A stretch of DNA of 20,952 bases from a virus: IMG/VR virus record IMGVR_UViG_3300034063_000629, positions 1 to 20,952 of that record, one strand, 5' to 3'. Below, piece after piece: positions 2,400-9,161 of the stretch. Every line of letters begins with the position of its first letter. The stretch's first letter is position 1. Both the position numbers and the translations under genes were made by a program. Under the pieces are notes generated by a model that did no database searches, had not been told where the DNA came from, and was given only the letters and a program-made list of their open reading frames with translations.

Positions 2400-3248
2400 A
2401 TGACCCTACACTGGACGCGGACTTCGCCACTACTTGAAACCCCACCAAAGCAAGCTGTCTTCGCGTATCTCCACAGGCTATCACGCTGCGGAGTGGACGC
2501 TAAGGTCATTCAACGCATGATCGACAACATCAACCAGTCGAGGGAAGCCCAAGCAGGGGGGCTACGCGAACGAATAGCTTTGGAAAACCAATGGTATTCC
2601 TCATTGCAAGACATGAAGGCAGGGAAAAGAGCCGAACCTGATTGGTCCGTTTACGCCTCTCCTCATTATCTGGGAGACCTCTGGGGGTGCTGGACCCAAT
2701 ACAGCAGAAAATATCTTCGAGAGATGAACAACCCAAAGTCCATGTTCTCCCACTCAGTCTTGGACGACTTCGGCACAGTCCGCCTTCTTGTTGACGTAGG
2801 TTGCGGAATCGGTTACACGACGGCAGTGTGGAAACAGCTATTTCCCACGGCTAGGGTCGTAGGGACCAATCTCCGGGATACGGTTCAATGGCGGGTTTGT
2901 GAAAAAATGCGAAAAGCTCACTTCTTTGAACTCGTGGAGAAAAAAGCCGACGTGGGCGGGGAGCGTGCGGACGTTGTCTTTGCTTCCGAGTATTTTGAGC
3001 ATTTTCAAGACCCGATTACCGAATTACGGGAAATGGTTAAAGACTTGCGGCAACCCCGATGCCTTCTTTTGGCTAGTTCATTCAATACGGTGTCGATTGG
3101 CCATTTTACCGAGTATCTGTGCGATGGGGAGTTTATCGACCAGTCTCGTATAAGCAAGAGGTTCAACGAGGAGTTGAAAAAACTTGGCTATGCGAGGCAG
3201 AAAACGAGGATTTTTAACAAGAAGCCGGATTACTGGCGCTGCGACTGA
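2400..3248 (+). CDS. Class I SAM-dependent methyltransferase
   Basis: The protein is predicted to transfer a methyl group from S-adenosylmethionine. The SAM-binding motif I is clear at residues 131-139 (VDVGCGIGY), with a following strand and GTN around 155-157. The segment DVVFASEYFEHF (about 191-202) is in the position of motif IV. The first 120 residues are helical and may form a substrate or interaction domain. It lacks the DPPY/NPPY and PC-ENV motifs of DNA adenine or C5-cytosine methyltransferases, so a sugar, a modified base or a small molecule is more likely as acceptor. The gene has its own promoter with almost no leader. It is the first of three genes (with the ParB-like and glycosyltransferase genes) that sit just before the terminase and may act together in DNA modification; that grouping is inference. 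Confidence 0.85.
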   Translation: MTLHWTRTSPLLETPPKQAVFAYLHRLSRCGVDAKVIQRMIDNINQSREAQAGGLRERIALENQWYSSLQDMKAGKRAEPDWSVYASPHYLGDLWGCWTQYSRKYLREMNNPKSMFSHSVLDDFGTVRLLVDVGCGIGYTTAVWKQLFPTARVVGTNLRDTVQWRVCEKMRKAHFFELVEKKADVGGERADVVFASEYFEHFQDPITELREMVKDLRQPRCLLLASSFNTVSIGHFTEYLCDGEFIDQSRISKRFNEELKKLGYARQKTRIFNKKPDYWRCD

Positions 3249-3297
3249 TCTCCGCAAGCGGGAAGGGGGCAGGACAGGAGGGGCGCGAATTTATCCC

Positions 3298-3325
3298 TTG
3301 TCTCCAGTTTCCTATTGTGTAACAT
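3298..3325 (+). promoter_or_regulatory. Candidate promoter of the ParB-like gene
   Basis: TTGTCT (3298-3303), a 16-nt spacer and TAACAT (3320-3325) resemble -35 and -10 elements. The ATG at 3347 would lie about 15 nt after the predicted transcription start. The match is moderate. Confidence 0.4.
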
Positions 3326-3346
3326 TCCGCTCCATAAGCCAACGCC

Positions 3347-4399
3347 ATGAGAAAACGCACCCTTCCACAGAGTCCTCCGAAAGTCGAAGCCCCCTCACGT
3401 TCACGAAAGCCTGCGCCTTCTGAGAAGACCGCGCAAATTCGTATTGAGAGGAAACTGCTCTCCGAGTTGCAAGACCATCCAAGAAACCACGAAATCCGCA
3501 AGCACCCGGAGGAGGGCACTCCAAAGTGGGAGGCGCTGAAGCTCAGTCTCGAAAACGATTATTTTGACCCGATGGTCTGGAACGAGCGCAATAGGCAGCT
3601 CGTTTCAGGGCACTTGCGGAAGAAGCTCCTCCTTTCCATGGGATACACGCACGCTGACGTGAGCGTCGTCAGCTACACGGAGGAGGTCCACCTTGCGAGG
3701 CTGCTCGCGGCGAATAAGGGCATGGGTGACGATGACCTTGAGGGGCAAATTGCCATGTTGAAGGAACTAGAAGACATCGACGAAGACCACGGGTTTGCCC
3801 TCGCGGGTTTTACCGGCGAAGAGTTTGACGATTTGCTGTCAGAGTTTTCCAGCGGTGGCGCGGTTCTTCGCAAAGAGGAACCCGGTAGTCGAGGAGGGGA
3901 TAGCGAAGAGGAAGGAGAAAGGCCCAGCCTTTATACGTCGAAGATCGACGCCCCGGTTTATACGCCGAAGGGAATAAAGCCGCAAGTTTCGGAGCTTTAT
4001 GATGGCACCCGAACGGACCAGCTACTCAAGCAGCTTTCTGAGGTGCGTGCCTCAAGAGAAATCCCTGCGGAGGTTATATCTTTTCTGAGGTATGCGGCGT
4101 ATCGCCATACTGTTTTCGACTACGGTAAAATCGCTGAGTTTTACGCCCACGCTCCCGCCCCGCTCCAACGACTCATGGAGGACAGCACTCTTATAGTCGT
4201 GGACATCGACAAGGCCATTGAGAATGGGCATGTTTTAATGACGAAACGCTTCGAGAGGCTCTACCAGAAAAACGACAAGATTTTGGAAGCCGAGGGATAT
4301 GACATAAACCGACATTGCCGGGATGACGGCGAGTCCCTTACTGATGAGGAAGCGGAGGAGTTCGTGGAGGATATTGAGGCTGATGAGGAGTTTGAGTAA
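3347..4399 (+). CDS. ParB/sulfiredoxin-fold domain protein with conserved C-terminal tail
   Basis: Residues about 31-125 read as a ParB N-terminal (ParB/Srx) domain: LQDHPRNHEIRKH (41-53), then WNERNRQLVSGHLRKKLLLSMG (split here as WNERNRQLV and SGHLRKKLLLSMG, 78-99), the second carrying the G-H-x-R signature. The segment around 149-163 (GFALAGFTGEEFDDL) is typical of phage ParB-like proteins fused to DNA methyltransferases, but no methyltransferase follows. Instead the C-terminal 160 residues hold a separate conserved-looking block (KIDAPVYTPKG near 199; EVISFLRYAAYRHTVF near 244-259; LQRLMEDSTLIVVDIDKAIE near 274) and an acidic end. From memory, that block occurs in phage DNA-modification loci; I could not check it. 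There is no helix-turn-helix for partition-type binding. It lies between a methyltransferase and a glycosyltransferase, so a role in targeting or processing modified DNA is plausible. Confidence 0.75.
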   Translation: MRKRTLPQSPPKVEAPSRSRKPAPSEKTAQIRIERKLLSELQDHPRNHEIRKHPEEGTPKWEALKLSLENDYFDPMVWNERNRQLVSGHLRKKLLLSMGYTHADVSVVSYTEEVHLARLLAANKGMGDDDLEGQIAMLKELEDIDEDHGFALAGFTGEEFDDLLSEFSSGGAVLRKEEPGSRGGDSEEEGERPSLYTSKIDAPVYTPKGIKPQVSELYDGTRTDQLLKQLSEVRASREIPAEVISFLRYAAYRHTVFDYGKIAEFYAHAPAPLQRLMEDSTLIVVDIDKAIENGHVLMTKRFERLYQKNDKILEAEGYDINRHCRDDGESLTDEEAEEFVEDIEADEEFE

Positions 4400-4440
4400 A
4401 AGCCCCCCTTTCTTCCCTTCCTTCATTCTCCTTTTTTATC

Positions 4441-4446
4441 TATAAT
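4441..4446 (+). promoter_or_regulatory. Consensus -10 element upstream of the glycosyltransferase gene
   Basis: TATAAT is a perfect -10 hexamer, but no good -35 lies at the usual distance. Inverted repeat site 3 begins at the next base, so it would cover the predicted transcription start, as expected for a repressor operator. The leader would be about 48 nt. Confidence 0.4.
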
Positions 4447-4462
4447 TTGCACGAATGTGCAA
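4447..4462. repeat. Phage-wide inverted repeat, site 3
   Basis: TTGCACGAATGTGCAA matches the consensus with one arm mismatch and an AA spacer. It lies between the ParB-like and glycosyltransferase genes. A possible AGGACA-17-TCTACT pair starts 8 nt after it, but its predicted start would fall inside the coding sequence, so I do not rely on it. Confidence 0.85.
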
Positions 4463-4500
4463 AAGTATGCAGGACAGACAGTTGGACACGCACTCTACTT

Positions 4501-5427
4501 ATGAAAAAACAAGCTGTGAGAAAACGAGAAAGTCGCCCCACACCTGCGGCAGCCCCCGTGTTAAACGAGGAGCAGCTCGCTGTTTTTATTCTTACGCACA
4601 AGCGTCCTGATCGGGTCTTCACCACCGCGTCGCTGAAACGGCACGGGTGGACGGGACCAGTCTACTACATCGTGGATGACGAAGACCCCACGGTGGATGA
4701 ATATCGGAAAAATTTCGGTGAGGATAAGGTAATCATGTTCTCAAAGGAGGAGGAAGAGAAGACGATGGACCTCTTCGATAACCACACAGGGAATCGAGGC
4801 ACTATTACTTACGTCCGCAATGCAGCCTTCCACATCGCTGAAAAACTCGGTTACCGATACTTCATCCAGTTGGACGACGACTACGCCTTTTTTGCGTTGA
4901 CGCGGGATACACGCGGTCGCTTTCATCGAAAGCCAATCCGCAATCTGGATGAAGTCCTTCACACCCTACTGGATTACTACAAATCGCTGCCTCCGCATGT
5001 CCTTAGTTTGGCTATGGCACAGGGGGGCGATTTCCTAGGGGGTTCTCAGGGGAGCATGGCCAAGAATTTGAAAATGCGGAGAAAAGCCATGAACTCTTTT
5101 ATCTGCGATGTGAAGCGCCCGTTCAAATTCCGCGGTCGAATGAACGAGGACGTGAACACGTATGTATCCCTACAAGCTAGAGGGTTCGTGTTTTTTACCA
5201 CGCCGCTTTGTCATCTCACGCAGCACGCGACGCAGAGCAATGCAGGCGGTATTACCGAACTTTACAAAGCCTTCGGGACGTATGCGAAGTCGATGTATAC
5301 CGTGATGTCGAACCCATCCTGCGTTAAGGTTGGGGTTATGGGTTCTCGGTTTCCACGAATCCACCACCAGATTAACTGGAGGTATGCCGCTCCGAAGATT
5401 ATTTCTCCTGATTACCGAAAGGAGTAA
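4501..5427 (+). CDS. TET-associated-type DNA glycosyltransferase (TAGT family)
   Basis: This is a GT-A-like glycosyltransferase. The N-terminal strand VFILTHKRPDR (28-38), the strand YYIVDDEDP (55-63), VRNAAFHIAEKLGYRYF (105-121) and the metal-binding DDD (125-127) follow the GT-A order. Further blocks match my recollection of the TAGT family: MAQGGDFLGG (172-181), RRKAMNSFIC (193-202), GRMNEDVNTYV (212-222), TQSNAGGITELY (244-255), SMYTVMSNPSCVKV (264-277) and RIHH (286-289). TAGT proteins are phage enzymes predicted to attach sugars to oxidised 5-methylpyrimidines in DNA. I start it at ATG 4501; the frame is open upstream through the inverted repeat from a TTG at 4447, which is unlikely to be used. 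No TET/JBP dioxygenase is in the window, so the hydroxymethylated substrate must come from outside it, or the substrate differs. It lies directly before the terminase, as expected if DNA is modified before packaging. Confidence 0.8.
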   Translation: MKKQAVRKRESRPTPAAAPVLNEEQLAVFILTHKRPDRVFTTASLKRHGWTGPVYYIVDDEDPTVDEYRKNFGEDKVIMFSKEEEEKTMDLFDNHTGNRGTITYVRNAAFHIAEKLGYRYFIQLDDDYAFFALTRDTRGRFHRKPIRNLDEVLHTLLDYYKSLPPHVLSLAMAQGGDFLGGSQGSMAKNLKMRRKAMNSFICDVKRPFKFRGRMNEDVNTYVSLQARGFVFFTTPLCHLTQHATQSNAGGITELYKAFGTYAKSMYTVMSNPSCVKVGVMGSRFPRIHHQINWRYAAPKIISPDYRKE

Positions 5428-5433
5428 GCCATC

Positions 5434-6066
5434 ATGGGTTTACCAAAGATTAAAGTTCGGAGTAGAGTTCCGCAGCTTAACGCAAAGCGGGAACCGCGAT
5501 ATGGCACGCCACCGAAAGTCGCTGCCAAGGTGCAGGAGAATAAGCAGCTAATGCTTTTCCATCTGCGTGCGTCGAAGGGTAATGTAGCATACGCCTGTGG
5601 AAAGACGGGGATAAGCCGCATGACGCACTACCGATGGCTTCGCGGAGACCCTGATTACGCACAGACGGTTGATGACATCGGGGAGGACTTGGTGGACAAC
5701 ATGGAGTCTCTTTTCATCAGCACGACTATCAAGGAGAAGGATTTGCGGTCGATGCGGTGGTTTTTGGAGCGTCGAGGAAAGGACCGTGGATACGGGAAGC
5801 CCTCCGTCCAGCAGTTTGACGAGGACGGAAACCCTGTTCATTCCATCGGAGTCCAGAATAACAACATCATCATGCTTCGTGAAGATGTTCCGGCGAAGTC
5901 TCTCGGGTTCGCGTTAGCCGACATTTTGAAAAACCGCCCTGACCTTCTGGAGCAAGCCCAACCAAAGAAGGGGAGCGCCCATCAGCACTATACTTTGGAT
6001 GTTTCCGCGGAAGATGAGCAGCTTGAGCAATGGGAGGATACAGACTTCGACGATGATGAGGGCTGA
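5434..6066 (+). CDS. terS: Terminase small subunit
   Basis: This protein should recognise phage DNA and load the large terminase. After a basic N-terminus, residues about 47-75 (KGNVAYACGKTGISRMTHYRWL split across the helix-turn-helix, then RGDPDYAQTV) match the small-terminase DNA-binding fold. DNMESLFISTTI and FLERRGKDRGYG (about 89-121) follow, as in many phage small terminases. The C-terminus is very acidic (DTDFDDDEG), which is common in the part that contacts the large subunit. It starts 7 nt after the glycosyltransferase stop; GGAG at 5421-5424 is one of the few Shine-Dalgarno-like sequences in the window. It overlaps the large terminase gene by a few codons. Confidence 0.85.
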   Translation: MGLPKIKVRSRVPQLNAKREPRYGTPPKVAAKVQENKQLMLFHLRASKGNVAYACGKTGISRMTHYRWLRGDPDYAQTVDDIGEDLVDNMESLFISTTIKEKDLRSMRWFLERRGKDRGYGKPSVQQFDEDGNPVHSIGVQNNNIIMLREDVPAKSLGFALADILKNRPDLLEQAQPKKGSAHQHYTLDVSAEDEQLEQWEDTDFDDDEG

Positions 6067-7654
6067 CCCTAAAATAGAACGGGCTACGGGGGATGCTGTT
6101 CGCAAAGGTCGCATCGTCACCCCCGAAGGATTTGGGAGTGATGACGAATATATTGCCATGCTTACGGTGTTGATCGAACTGGCACGGCATGATTTCCTTG
6201 CCTACTACCACCTATTCAACCCGCAGGGTCATTCCAGCTTCGTGTTAAGCCGCGTCCACCGCTATTTGATCAGTTTGGTCCAGCGGGTCATGCACGGAGA
6301 GTTGCCCCCGAACACCGCGGTTTCGGTTCCGCCGCAGCACGGGAAAAGCTCCATGCTTTCAATCGAGGCTCCGTCGTGGAGGCTGGGCGATGCGCCTACG
6401 GACCACGTTGCGATTACGGGTTTCAGCCACACGCTCGTTACGAAGTTCTCCAAGGCAATTCGCGCCCGCATGGAATCCCCCCTTTACCAGTTGGTCTTCC
6501 CCGGCGTCCACCCCGTGCGGGGAAGCAACAAGGCGGACGAATGGGTTACAACGCGGGGCGGCGGGGTAGTCGCGAAGTCCGCGGGGTCGAAGCTCACGGG
6601 TCGCCGAGTCGATTGGCTCATCATGGACGACGTTCACGCGGGCCGCGCGGAAGCAGAGTCCGCCGTTTTGCGTCAGAAGGTGATCCAGTGGTATTTCGGT
6701 GACTGCTTCACCCGTCTCCACCCGAAGGCGAAGCAGTTCATCATTGGGACGCGCTGGCACCCCGACGATTTGATCGGGAAGCTGACGAGCGAGGAACACA
6801 TCAACCAGCTAATTGCCGAAGGGCGGGAAGACCAGAAGTTCAATTACATCAACATTCCCGCGTTGGTCGCGGAGGGTGAGGAGGACATCCTTGGCCGCGG
6901 ACCGGACGAAGCCCTCTTCCCCGAGGAACGCCCGCTTTCCTATTTGCAGGGGATTCGCGCCACGATTCCAGCCTACGAGTGGGAAAGTCAGTATTTGGGC
7001 AAGCCCCGGTCGGCGAGCAGTGGGGTGACGGACCTCTCTAGGATTCGCTACGTGAAGATGTCGGACGTTCCTTGGGACGACATTGACGAAATCGTCAGAG
7101 GATGGGACACGGCGTTGAGCGAGCAGCAAACGGCGGACTACACGGCGGGGGCGCTTCTCGGTTATGGGAAGAAGTCGAAGACGATTTATGTCCTCAACAT
7201 GGTTCGGCGTCGTTTGGCGTGGGCGAAAATGCGCTCCCTCATTACGCTGCAAGCCGAGGTCGATTTGCGCGGATACCCGCAGAACATCGCGGCGGTCGAG
7301 GAAGGAGGGGAGGAACCCGAACCCGCCATTCGCGTTCTCCGCATGGGTATGGAGGGTGTCGGCGGTTTCAAGGGTGTCGTTGAGGACGTGCGTGACGCGC
7401 TCCTCGGTCGCGTCAAAGTCGAGTTGAAGAACCCACCGAAGCGTTCAGAGGGAGGCGGAAGCAAGCTGCTCCGCGCTCAATCTTGGCTCAACAAAATCGA
7501 AGCGGGTCAAGTCGTAGTAGTCCAAGCCGAGTGGACGAAAGATTTCATCGACGAGCTTGATACATTCCCAGATGGAAAGCACGACGACCAGATTGACGCC
7601 GTAAGCGTCGCATGGGAAATGCTCGAAAAGCGCGGAAAACTGCTTCTTGCTTGA
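6053..7654 (+). CDS. terL: Terminase large subunit (ATPase and nuclease)
   Basis: This is the motor that cuts concatemeric DNA and pumps it into the prohead. With the start at 6053, the Walker A-like motif is PPQHGKSS (93-100), Walker B is VDWLIMDDVH (186-195), and the coupling motif is FIIGTRWHPDDL (229-240). The nuclease domain begins with VRGWDTA (348-354), has AAVEEGGEE in the middle, and ends with FPDGKHDDQIDA near residue 510, supplying the acidic metal ligands. The length of 533 residues is normal. ATG 6053 and 6056 overlap the end of the small terminase gene; the longer frame from 5999 overlaps it by 68 nt and is less likely. No key residue is missing, so it should be active. Confidence 0.93.
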   Translation: MMRADPKIERATGDAVRKGRIVTPEGFGSDDEYIAMLTVLIELARHDFLAYYHLFNPQGHSSFVLSRVHRYLISLVQRVMHGELPPNTAVSVPPQHGKSSMLSIEAPSWRLGDAPTDHVAITGFSHTLVTKFSKAIRARMESPLYQLVFPGVHPVRGSNKADEWVTTRGGGVVAKSAGSKLTGRRVDWLIMDDVHAGRAEAESAVLRQKVIQWYFGDCFTRLHPKAKQFIIGTRWHPDDLIGKLTSEEHINQLIAEGREDQKFNYINIPALVAEGEEDILGRGPDEALFPEERPLSYLQGIRATIPAYEWESQYLGKPRSASSGVTDLSRIRYVKMSDVPWDDIDEIVRGWDTALSEQQTADYTAGALLGYGKKSKTIYVLNMVRRRLAWAKMRSLITLQAEVDLRGYPQNIAAVEEGGEEPEPAIRVLRMGMEGVGGFKGVVEDVRDALLGRVKVELKNPPKRSEGGGSKLLRAQSWLNKIEAGQVVVVQAEWTKDFIDELDTFPDGKHDDQIDAVSVAWEMLEKRGKLLLA

Positions 7655-7688: not shown

Positions 7689-8282
7689 ATGAGCAATCTC
7701 AGCGGTTCGTTCTTCAAGTATCCCCCGCAAGACGCGGACGAGTTTGAAACCCTATGCCAATACGTTCGTGATTTGCGCCCGAAGACCATTATGGAAATCG
7801 GCTCGCGTCATGGGAGATCCCTCATCCGTCTTGCGGAAGCCTCGATGCCGTCTCTGCGCCGCGTCATCATCGTGGATCTACCAGGGTCTCTTTGGGGCAA
7901 AGCCAATTCGGAACAAGCCCTGAGTGATTGCGCGGAGCATCTTCGGGGTCGTGGGGTTGAGGTTGACTTGCATTTCATCGACTCGCATAGCCGGGAGGCG
8001 CACGCACTTTCCCTTCGCGAAAGAGGATGCGTGGATTTCCTGTTCATCGACGGTGACCACACCTACGAAGGGGTCATGAACGACTACCTCTGGTTTGCCC
8101 CGTGTGTTGTTTCCGGCGGGGTCGTCGCGTTTCATGACGTTTGCGCTACGCCGAACCTGGCTTATCGCGGCAATCGCGTGGAAGTCCCAAGGCTCTGGGA
8201 TGAAATCAAGACGCCAGAGGATGTGGTTTTGCACAAGGTCGGTTCCCCATATGGAATCGGAATCAAGACCATCAAGTATTGA
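7689..8282 (+). CDS. Class I SAM-dependent methyltransferase (Methyltransf_24-like)
   Basis: The protein has a compact Rossmann methyltransferase domain with almost nothing added. Motif I is IMEIGSRHGRSL (34-45). VIIVDLPGSLWG (59-70) supplies the acidic residue that binds the SAM ribose, DFLFIDGDHTYEGVMNDY (116-133) carries the motif IV region, and GGVVAFHDV (143-151) follows. That set, above all IDGDHTYEGV and GG-x3-FHD, is typical of the Methyltransf_24/cephalosporin-hydroxylase-like group, which methylates small molecules or sugars rather than DNA bases. It follows the terminase by 34 nt with a C/A-rich leader (CATAACCTAACAAATAC) and no Shine-Dalgarno sequence. Its place between terminase and portal is unusual and it is not needed for assembly. 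It may modify the same product as the neighbouring sulfotransferase-like protein. Confidence 0.85.
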   Translation: MSNLSGSFFKYPPQDADEFETLCQYVRDLRPKTIMEIGSRHGRSLIRLAEASMPSLRRVIIVDLPGSLWGKANSEQALSDCAEHLRGRGVEVDLHFIDSHSREAHALSLRERGCVDFLFIDGDHTYEGVMNDYLWFAPCVVSGGVVAFHDVCATPNLAYRGNRVEVPRLWDEIKTPEDVVLHKVGSPYGIGIKTIKY

Positions 8283-8312: not shown

Positions 8313-9161
8313 ATGAGAACAAATAAGGAGCGGTCAATCATCTTGATCGAAAACCCACTCACCGGAAACGAATCCTTCGCGACGGCGATGGGTCTGAAAG
8401 ACACCCTTGAGTTGGCCAAATATGTCAGGCCAACCGATGCGCGTTCCGTAATGCCGCGTCAAACTTGGGATTCCGCTCAAAAGGTCATTCTGGTGCGCGA
8501 TCCCGTTCAGCGATTGGAGAGTGCCGTGACTCTCGCCTTCCTCAATGCCGGATCAGCGGATTTCAGTGAGCCGTTCAACGATCTACTCATGAGCAGTCGT
8601 GGCGGAAAACCAGAAGAGCGAACAACTGCTGTTCTGGAATTTCTCCAGTCGTCAATGGACCTAGCCCCGGAGTTTTTCCTTCCTCAAAATCGGTGGCTCA
8701 CGGCAAAGTTCGATCTGATTCTCGCTACGAGGGACATCGCGCAATACTTCAACACGGTGGTCGGGAAGTGTTGTTTGAAAAAGAACGCCATCAAGTCCAA
8801 CCCCCAGTATCGCGTTTTTCGTGGAAGCGTAAAATCACCGCTTCTCAAACAGGTCTACGCAGAAGACTACGCCCTGTTTGATCGTCTGCGTGTTTGGTCG
8901 CCTGACCCGCGAATCATTCGATTGGTGGAAGGGAACTGCAAACGGTGTATGCAAAATGAGGGAAAGTTCGATTCCCTGCTAGACGGTCAACAGCTTTCGG
9001 AAGACAACGATCAGCCCGAGACACAAGCAGAGCCTACCCATTCGGATGAAGCTCAAACCGAACCAGAAGTTTTGCACGTTCGTGCAAAACGAAAACGAAG
9101 GAAACCTTCGACAATCGAATCGGAGCTTGAGGTGATTGACACTGATGGCGCGGAGGCGTAA
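8313..9161 (+). CDS. Sulfotransferase-like protein
   Basis: VILVRDPVQRLESA (58-71) matches the R-D-P-x2-R-x2-S motif by which sulfotransferases bind the 3'-phosphate of PAPS. The order of later blocks also fits the Sulfotransfer_2-type family: PQNRWL, FDLILATRDIAQYF and, near the end of the domain, VYAEDYALFDRL. The N-terminal segment ILIENPLTGNESFA (10-23) sits where the 5'-phosphosulfate loop should be, but is not the standard PK-x-G-G-T form, so activity is uncertain. After about residue 225 comes a low-complexity tail, first acidic (Glu, Asp, Gln) then basic (AKRKRRKP). The tail encodes inverted repeat site 4. The gene has its own strong promoter and is inserted between terminase and portal, so it looks like a moron. 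Sulfation of a sugar on DNA or on the particle is a hypothesis. Confidence 0.65.
   Translation: MRTNKERSIILIENPLTGNESFATAMGLKDTLELAKYVRPTDARSVMPRQTWDSAQKVILVRDPVQRLESAVTLAFLNAGSADFSEPFNDLLMSSRGGKPEERTTAVLEFLQSSMDLAPEFFLPQNRWLTAKFDLILATRDIAQYFNTVVGKCCLKKNAIKSNPQYRVFRGSVKSPLLKQVYAEDYALFDRLRVWSPDPRIIRLVEGNCKRCMQNEGKFDSLLDGQQLSEDNDQPETQAEPTHSDEAQTEPEVLHVRAKRKRRKPSTIESELEVIDTDGAEA
9072..9087. repeat. Phage-wide inverted repeat, site 4 (perfect, inside a gene)
   Basis: TTGCACGTTCGTGCAA is a perfect copy. The arms extend to 10 bp each (9069-9078 and 9081-9090), the longest in the window. It lies in the low-complexity 3' end of the sulfotransferase-like gene, 48 nt before the portal promoter. Confidence 0.92.

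Follow-up and report, generated by a model that had tools for sequence, protein, structure and literature searches.

TET/JBP-TAGT hypermodification systems of phages were reportedly described by Iyer et al. in 2013. The locus studied here raises the question of what a TAGT-family glycosyltransferase does in a phage when no TET enzyme accompanies it, and on which acceptor it would then act. The window is the whole IMG/VR record IMGVR_UViG_3300034063_000629 (20,952 bases), which is a fragment of a tailed-phage genome. A first-pass annotation, made from the letters alone, had proposed that a SAM methyltransferase (called MT1 here), a ParB-fold protein with a conserved tail and a TAGT enzyme form a DNA hypermodification cassette, and that a dioxygenase might be encoded outside the window.

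Results

Gene content of the locus

The ORF listing contains all three reading frames, and profile matches bear out the identities proposed for them (Table 1). The third has two candidate starts, of which the ATG at 4501 (308 aa) is likelier than the TTG at 4447. That the cassette lies immediately 5′ of the terminase was also confirmed, the small and large subunit genes following it directly. Further 3′ are genes for the portal, the prohead protease and the capsid, and then a tail tape-measure-type gene that is cut at the 3′ end of the record.

Table 1. Features of the cassette and the adjoining terminase genes
Feature	Position	Strand	Evidence
MT1, class-I SAM methyltransferase, 282 aa	2400..3248	+	Pfam Methyltransf_23/11/12, SAM motif
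ParB-tail protein, 350 aa	3347..4399	+	phrog_620, phrog_498, model
ParB/Srx-fold N-terminal domain, residues ~30-144	3434..3778	+	VIA-align to ParB, Noc and sulfiredoxin structures
TAGT-partner tail domain, helical, residues ~196-315	3932..4291	+	invariant residues, stand-alone copies
TAGT-family glycosyltransferase	4447..5427	+	PF20691, phrog_842, GT-A model, catalytic motifs
Terminase small subunit, directly 3′ of TAGT	5434..6066	+	phrog_4044, 7e-6
Terminase large subunit	5999..7654	+	phrog_38 5e-93, Terminase_6C

The TAGT-family glycosyltransferase

The product read from 4501 matched the Pfam TAGT profile PF20691 with 120 bits against a curated cut-off of 27.5, and it also belongs to phrog_842 of PHROGs (7e-67). 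The assignment to the TAGT family, which was to be given up if the profile did not match, therefore stands. In an alignment of 65 TAGT relatives, D143-D144-D145, E234-D235 and H306-H307 are conserved, and with the DDD at 143-145 and E234-D235 kept, a DxD-type metal site is present. In the AlphaFold2 model (pLDDT 78) the protein adopts a GT-A fold, which answers the structural check that had been suggested for this protein. In the fold search it matched N-acetylglucosaminyltransferase I (Z 12.6, rmsd 4.0, 203 residues), polypeptide GalNAc-transferases matched at Z ~12 and the peptide S-glycosyltransferase ThuS at Z 10.9, and many of its GT-A neighbours in the PDB are protein and polysaccharide transferases. 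The model and the motifs show what looks like an active glycosyltransferase, its acceptor aside. In a tree, which is a quick one only, a second clade of TAGT enzymes, set off by a branch with support 96, pairs with ParB and not with the tail.

The ParB-tail protein

The protein encoded from 3347 matched phrog_620, labelled 'ParB-like partition protein', at 1e-23 over residues 27-301, the tail included, whereas phrog_498 (ParB-DNA methyltransferase) matched its ParB part more weakly (6e-14). The ParB N-domain fold in the model aligns with Noc (7ng0) at Z 11.7 over 92 residues with an rmsd of 2.2, and ParB-DNA methyltransferase fusions (phrog_498; PADLOC MTase_II) carry a similar domain. Known ParB relatives are nucleotide-switched DNA clamps. 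No ParA was seen in the Pfam lists of phage c5, a complete relative.

In the tail, Y196, Y205, R253, A263, Y266, E278, D286, A290 and G294 are invariant in 80 aligned proteins. The tail domain has no NCBIfam match, no significant Pfam match and no PADLOC family, and the two Pfam candidates, PDDEXK_10 (0.0075) and RnlA-toxin_DBD (0.023), are both below the cut-off and were rejected. It models as helices, and the fold-search rows for the tail part had Z below 4, in a list filled by the ParB domain. The motifs RH, YYAH, LME and IID were considered as those of a di-iron hydroxylase; this reading was dropped because conservation of its two histidines reaches only 93% and 80%, and it is not claimed here.

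Pairing of the tail and TAGT

We collected 135 TAGT loci whose TAGT sequences differ by 20% or more, 133 of which have enough upstream sequence to be tested. The tail is upstream of TAGT in all 133 of these non-redundant loci. In 92 of them it forms the C-terminal part of a ParB fusion, in 36 it is a separate protein of ~130 aa, and in the other 5 the contig breaks off within it. The idea that 'ParB' is the partner in every TAGT locus was rejected on this ground: the ~130-aa partners are the tail without ParB, and hence ParB is optional and the tail constant. In 106 of the 133 loci the two ORFs share 1-60 bases, lengths that are approximate because longest-ORF starts were used. When IMG/VR was searched with the tail alone, TAGT was found downstream in each of the 80 best loci, and when 50,697 phage records were searched, the 28 records with the tail were all among the 36 with TAGT. 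Conservation of the pairing is thus far beyond chance (133/133), and the tail and TAGT are, as far as gene neighbourhoods tell, an obligate pair.

MT1 and accessory genes

MT1 is above the Pfam cut-offs for Methyltransf_23, Methyltransf_11 and Methyltransf_12, and its SAM motif DxGCGxG is invariant, as in a class-I methyltransferase. A search with MT1 alone found a TAGT-family gene in 68 of the 80 best loci, which were not dereplicated, in nearly all cases at a distance of 1.8 kb or less; many of these TAGT-family genes belong to the second, tail-less clade. MT1 homologues lie between the tail and TAGT in three loci and beside the tail in two others. Judged by these neighbourhoods, MT1 is a dedicated companion of TAGT-family enzymes. 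The link between the cassette genes, which had been drawn from their position, becomes firm with the co-occurrence counts for TAGT, the tail and MT1.

NAD epimerase/dehydratase genes, which are typical of nucleotide-sugar synthesis (UDP-sugar-type epimerases), adjoin TAGT in four loci, follow a second TAGT in one and stand beside ParB in another. TAGT paralogues in tandem were found in three loci. The epimerase genes and the tandem paralogues near the cassettes would be in keeping with a supporting sugar supply. The association of MT1 with TAGT and epimerase genes suggests that it may methylate the sugar. In an unbiased clustering of neighbours, MT1 and the epimerase family recurred alongside the terminases and further genes of the late operon and of replication, and none of the neighbour clusters listed was oxygenase-like.

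Search for TET and other base-modifying genes

The profiles PF12851 (Tet_JBP), PF00145 (DNA_methylase) and PF00303 (Thymidylat_synt) had no match in the 20,952-base record. This agrees with the first-pass annotation, which had seen neither a dioxygenase nor a DNA C5-methyltransferase in the window and had proposed a profile check for these and for thymidylate synthase-like genes. Since the record is a fragment, absence of a gene from it alone proves nothing, and the relatives carry more weight. Tet_JBP matched none of 75 tail-TAGT virus records (48 + 27), which are mostly fragments and include the complete c5, phi jlb1, HHTV-2, NTR1, PMBT4, pv27 and a Porphyromonas phage. As positive controls, the same profile detected gp2 of the TET phages Nigel and Zemanar (E ~4e-8, below the curated cut-off) and a contig (54.6 bits) in which a weakly TAGT-like glycosyltransferase lies beside TET, the classical pairing. 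The generic 2OG oxygenase profile PF13640 matched none of 34 records, and PF00145 matched only 3 of 48, so that nearly all relatives are without a C5-methyltransferase match. Among the relatives PF00303 matched only in the large Vibrio phage pv27, at an annotated thymidylate synthase beside DHFR, and dCMP hydroxymethylase, the thymidylate-synthase-family marker of T-even type hmC, was not found in the relatives of the cassette. In the complete phage c5 (31.8 kb), no plausible base-modifying genes were found apart from those for ParB-tail and TAGT; a Pfam scan of nearly all the remaining proteins of c5 gave structural, replication, recombination, regulatory and lysis families and no base-modifying enzymes.

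The missing dioxygenase is therefore probably not merely out of view. TAGT does not in itself imply TET either, because ggt of phage T6 passes the TAGT cut-off and T6 has no TET match. The earlier interpretation is upheld in part: the cassette stands, and on stronger grounds than position, but relatives without Tet_JBP, complete phages among them, speak against a dioxygenase gene beyond the window. The other option offered at the time, a sugar placed on a base that arises by a different route, is favoured, in a form that also admits an acceptor other than a base.

Distribution

Cassettes are found in E. coli Rac prophages and in viruses of Lactobacillus, Nocardia, Vibrio, Porphyromonas and Haloarcula, and also in genomes or MAGs from a wide range of bacterial phyla; the hosts are bacteria and archaea. 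In the Rac prophage, ynaK and a gene for a protein that PGAP names hypothetical or 'GREB1-related protein' have the same ParB-tail - TAGT - terminase order, with a TAGT 47% identical to that of the window, but no MT1 adjoins them and a small ORF lies between TAGT and the terminase. At least 80% of this stretch is carried by 863 of 5,426 complete E. coli genomes (about one in six), and some others keep only part of ynaK.

Discussion

Comparison with known systems

The cassette resembles the TET/JBP-TAGT systems in its TAGT-family glycosyltransferase and in its slot just 5′ of the terminase. It differs from them in having neither TET/JBP nor a C5-methyltransferase and in having the obligate tail and MT1 instead. 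In Nigel and Zemanar a ParB-like gene heads the same slot, in the order ParB - TET - (ADDT, an amino acid:DNA transferase, in Zemanar) - P-loop kinase - terminase. Their gp1 proteins match the ParB part, whereas the tail is absent from the stretches of these phages examined. ParB-CTPase folds fused to DNA methyltransferases have been reported in phages, as have ParB fusions to Methyltransf_23, the Pfam family of MT1 (PMC12704722). As in those fusions (phrog_498), a ParB domain is coupled here to modifying enzymes, but its fusion partner is the tail, and the modifying enzymes are encoded separately.

The gene for the T6 beta-glucosyl-HMC alpha-glucosyltransferase, ggt, encodes a DNA glycosyltransferase (PMC13390438). 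It passes the PF20691 cut-off and belongs to phrog_842, so that a TAGT-family enzyme is able to work on DNA without TET, by way of hmC. Unlike the cassette, T6 makes hmC with a dCMP hydroxymethylase encoded next to ggt. The tail domain was not found in 50 kb of T6 examined, and ggt lies far from the cassette TAGT in the quick tree.

A candidate route to glycosylated phage DNA

Three arrangements headed by ParB can be set side by side: the ParB-DNA methyltransferase fusion, ParB-TET-kinase-terminase, and ParB-tail-TAGT-terminase. Common to all three are the slot and the domain at the head, which suggests that they also have a target in common, namely phage DNA awaiting packaging. We give a slightly better than even chance to the cassette being a TET-independent phage glycosylation module that acts, most likely, on phage DNA shortly before packaging, with the ParB-tail protein for targeting and MT1 methylating the sugar. 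The ParB domain and the tail would hold the glycosyltransferase on phage DNA, and TAGT, drawing on a nucleotide-sugar supplied by the host or the phage, would attach a sugar to DNA, either at an unmodified base or at one that the tail protein itself has altered. The transferred sugar would then be methylated by MT1, and the bulky group would shield the DNA from host nucleases.

Several observations bear on this DNA reading from the other side. Sugar transfer requires a nucleophile on the acceptor, and an enzyme that would hydroxylate a base was not seen. The tail has no known catalytic fold, the late-operon position fits glycosylation of the virion too, and the stand-alone tails (36/133) operate with no attached ParB domain. 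We know of no chemistry established for any tail-TAGT phage. As a tentative suggestion, to which we give a minority chance, the tail could be the missing activator: TAGT would glycosylate an unmodified DNA base or the tail would make the acceptor, and neither TET nor hydroxymethylated nucleotides would be needed. If so, the tail and TAGT would constitute a widespread two-gene system for coating DNA with sugar, with methylated or two-sugar variants.

Other explanations must be weighed against a DNA acceptor. The cassette may glycosylate a protein, such as the terminase, the portal, the capsid or the tail domain of the cassette itself, with MT1 capping the glycan and the late-operon place reflecting virion assembly. 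The position 5′ of the terminase and the GT-A matches to polypeptide GalNAc-transferases and ThuS would fit this, and in phage Corndog an O-methyltransferase and glycosyltransferases lie among structural genes and capsid modification has been proposed (PMC4351075). However, the constant neighbour of TAGT is the ParB-linked tail and no structural protein, the best-understood phage member of the family, T6 ggt, modifies DNA, and ParB has links to DNA methyltransferases and to TET as well. We regard a protein acceptor as rather unlikely, though the chief competitor of the DNA reading, and from these considerations DNA appears the likelier acceptor.

Canonical TET-type hypermodification, with the dioxygenase and C5-methyltransferase elsewhere in the phage or in the host, is suggested by the family name, the known TET-TAGT pairing, the incomplete record and the one contig with TET beside a weakly TAGT-like enzyme. 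It is hard to reconcile with the counts for Tet_JBP (0/75), PF13640 (0/34) and PF00145 (3/48) and with the complete c5, which has none of them; a host TET would moreover be required alike in Lactobacillus, Haloarcula, Nocardia and E. coli hosts. We consider it very unlikely. Hardly more credible, and if anything less so, is a host-directed two-gene module, toxin-antitoxin-like or acting in superinfection, in which the glycosyltransferase would target a protein or nucleic acid of the host and the tail would serve it as antidote or adaptor. Its strict two-gene order, short overlaps and small upstream partner would look familiar in such a role, as would its carriage in prophages, including those of E. 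coli, but the tail is often fused to ParB and has a fixed place beside the terminase, the additions of MT1, epimerase and a second TAGT fit a biosynthetic pathway better, and neither TAGT nor the tail has a PADLOC match.

Implications

TAGT and ParB were already known; the features that set this cassette apart are the tail as obligate partner, the dedication of MT1 and the lack of TET, with earlier TET-TAGT comparative genomics outside this comparison. Should DNA prove to be the acceptor, bacterial and archaeal phages would have a route to glycosylated DNA that is explained neither by TET oxidation nor by hydroxymethylated nucleotides, and sequence searches that require TET or dCMP hydroxymethylase would miss such cassettes. 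The tail is an unnamed and strictly conserved partner that PHROGs has folded into phrog_620, a label that probably presents many phage genes wrongly as partition proteins. Because the pair is so common in complete E. coli genomes, the question of its acceptor can be tested with the E. coli genes.

Related cassettes and neighboring genes

A second clade of the TAGT glycosyltransferases (related loci L298, L306, L330 and L336) scored 131-163 bits against PF20691. In this clade MT1, the companion SAM methyltransferase, adjoins TAGT, and ParB is often adjoining too; the tail, the conserved C-terminal domain of the ParB-tail protein, is absent. Near the second-clade cassette, L313, L317 and L332 encode a possible tail counterpart, a small 'W..MPEF.Q' protein of ~90 aa without a family in Pfam or PHROGs. 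L298 has an MT1-ParB-TAGT operon in which a Radical SAM/SPASM gene overlaps TAGT, and its product possibly performs additional base or sugar chemistry. In L306, a single block unites a nucleotide-sugar enzyme, a glycosyltransferase and a methyltransferase.

Table. Features of the window and of related loci
Feature	Location	Remarks
Second-clade TAGT	L298 6430-7317	PF20691; 'P.Y..SKGR'
Second-clade TAGT	L306 4088-5002	PF20691; 'P.Y..SKGR'
Second-clade TAGT	L330 4018-4851	PF20691; 'P.Y..SKGR'
Second-clade TAGT	L336 4093-5007	PF20691; 'P.Y..SKGR'
Radical SAM/SPASM protein	L298 7295-8248	gene overlaps TAGT gene
Epimerase-ParB-TAGT-MT1 operon	L306 2485-5819	then terminase-like genes
Second SAM methyltransferase	window 7689-8282	Methyltransf_24 1e-17; RMNT_CmcI 5e-6
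282-aa protein	window 8313-9161	adjoins second methyltransferase
294-aa protein	window 14944-15828	3' of capsid gene
Broken ynaK + 'GREB1-related protein'	L379 4001-5717	E. coli Rac prophage
Frameshifted TAGT, two ORFs	L126 9983-10908	Spirochaetes MAG

The second methyltransferase of the window is encoded immediately 3' of the large terminase gene. RMNT_CmcI is a rhamnosyl O-methyltransferase family, and the product is possibly another sugar O-methyltransferase. Family matches were not found for the 282-aa and 294-aa products; the former contains KVILVRDPVQRLESAV, which is similar to sulfotransferase motifs, and the latter has, by sequence, the appearance of a GT-B or polysaccharide-type enzyme.

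In the L379 strain ynaK, the ParB-tail gene of Rac prophages, is disrupted, and its C-terminal part remains as a separate ORF, annotated as 'transcriptional regulator', upstream of the TAGT gene.
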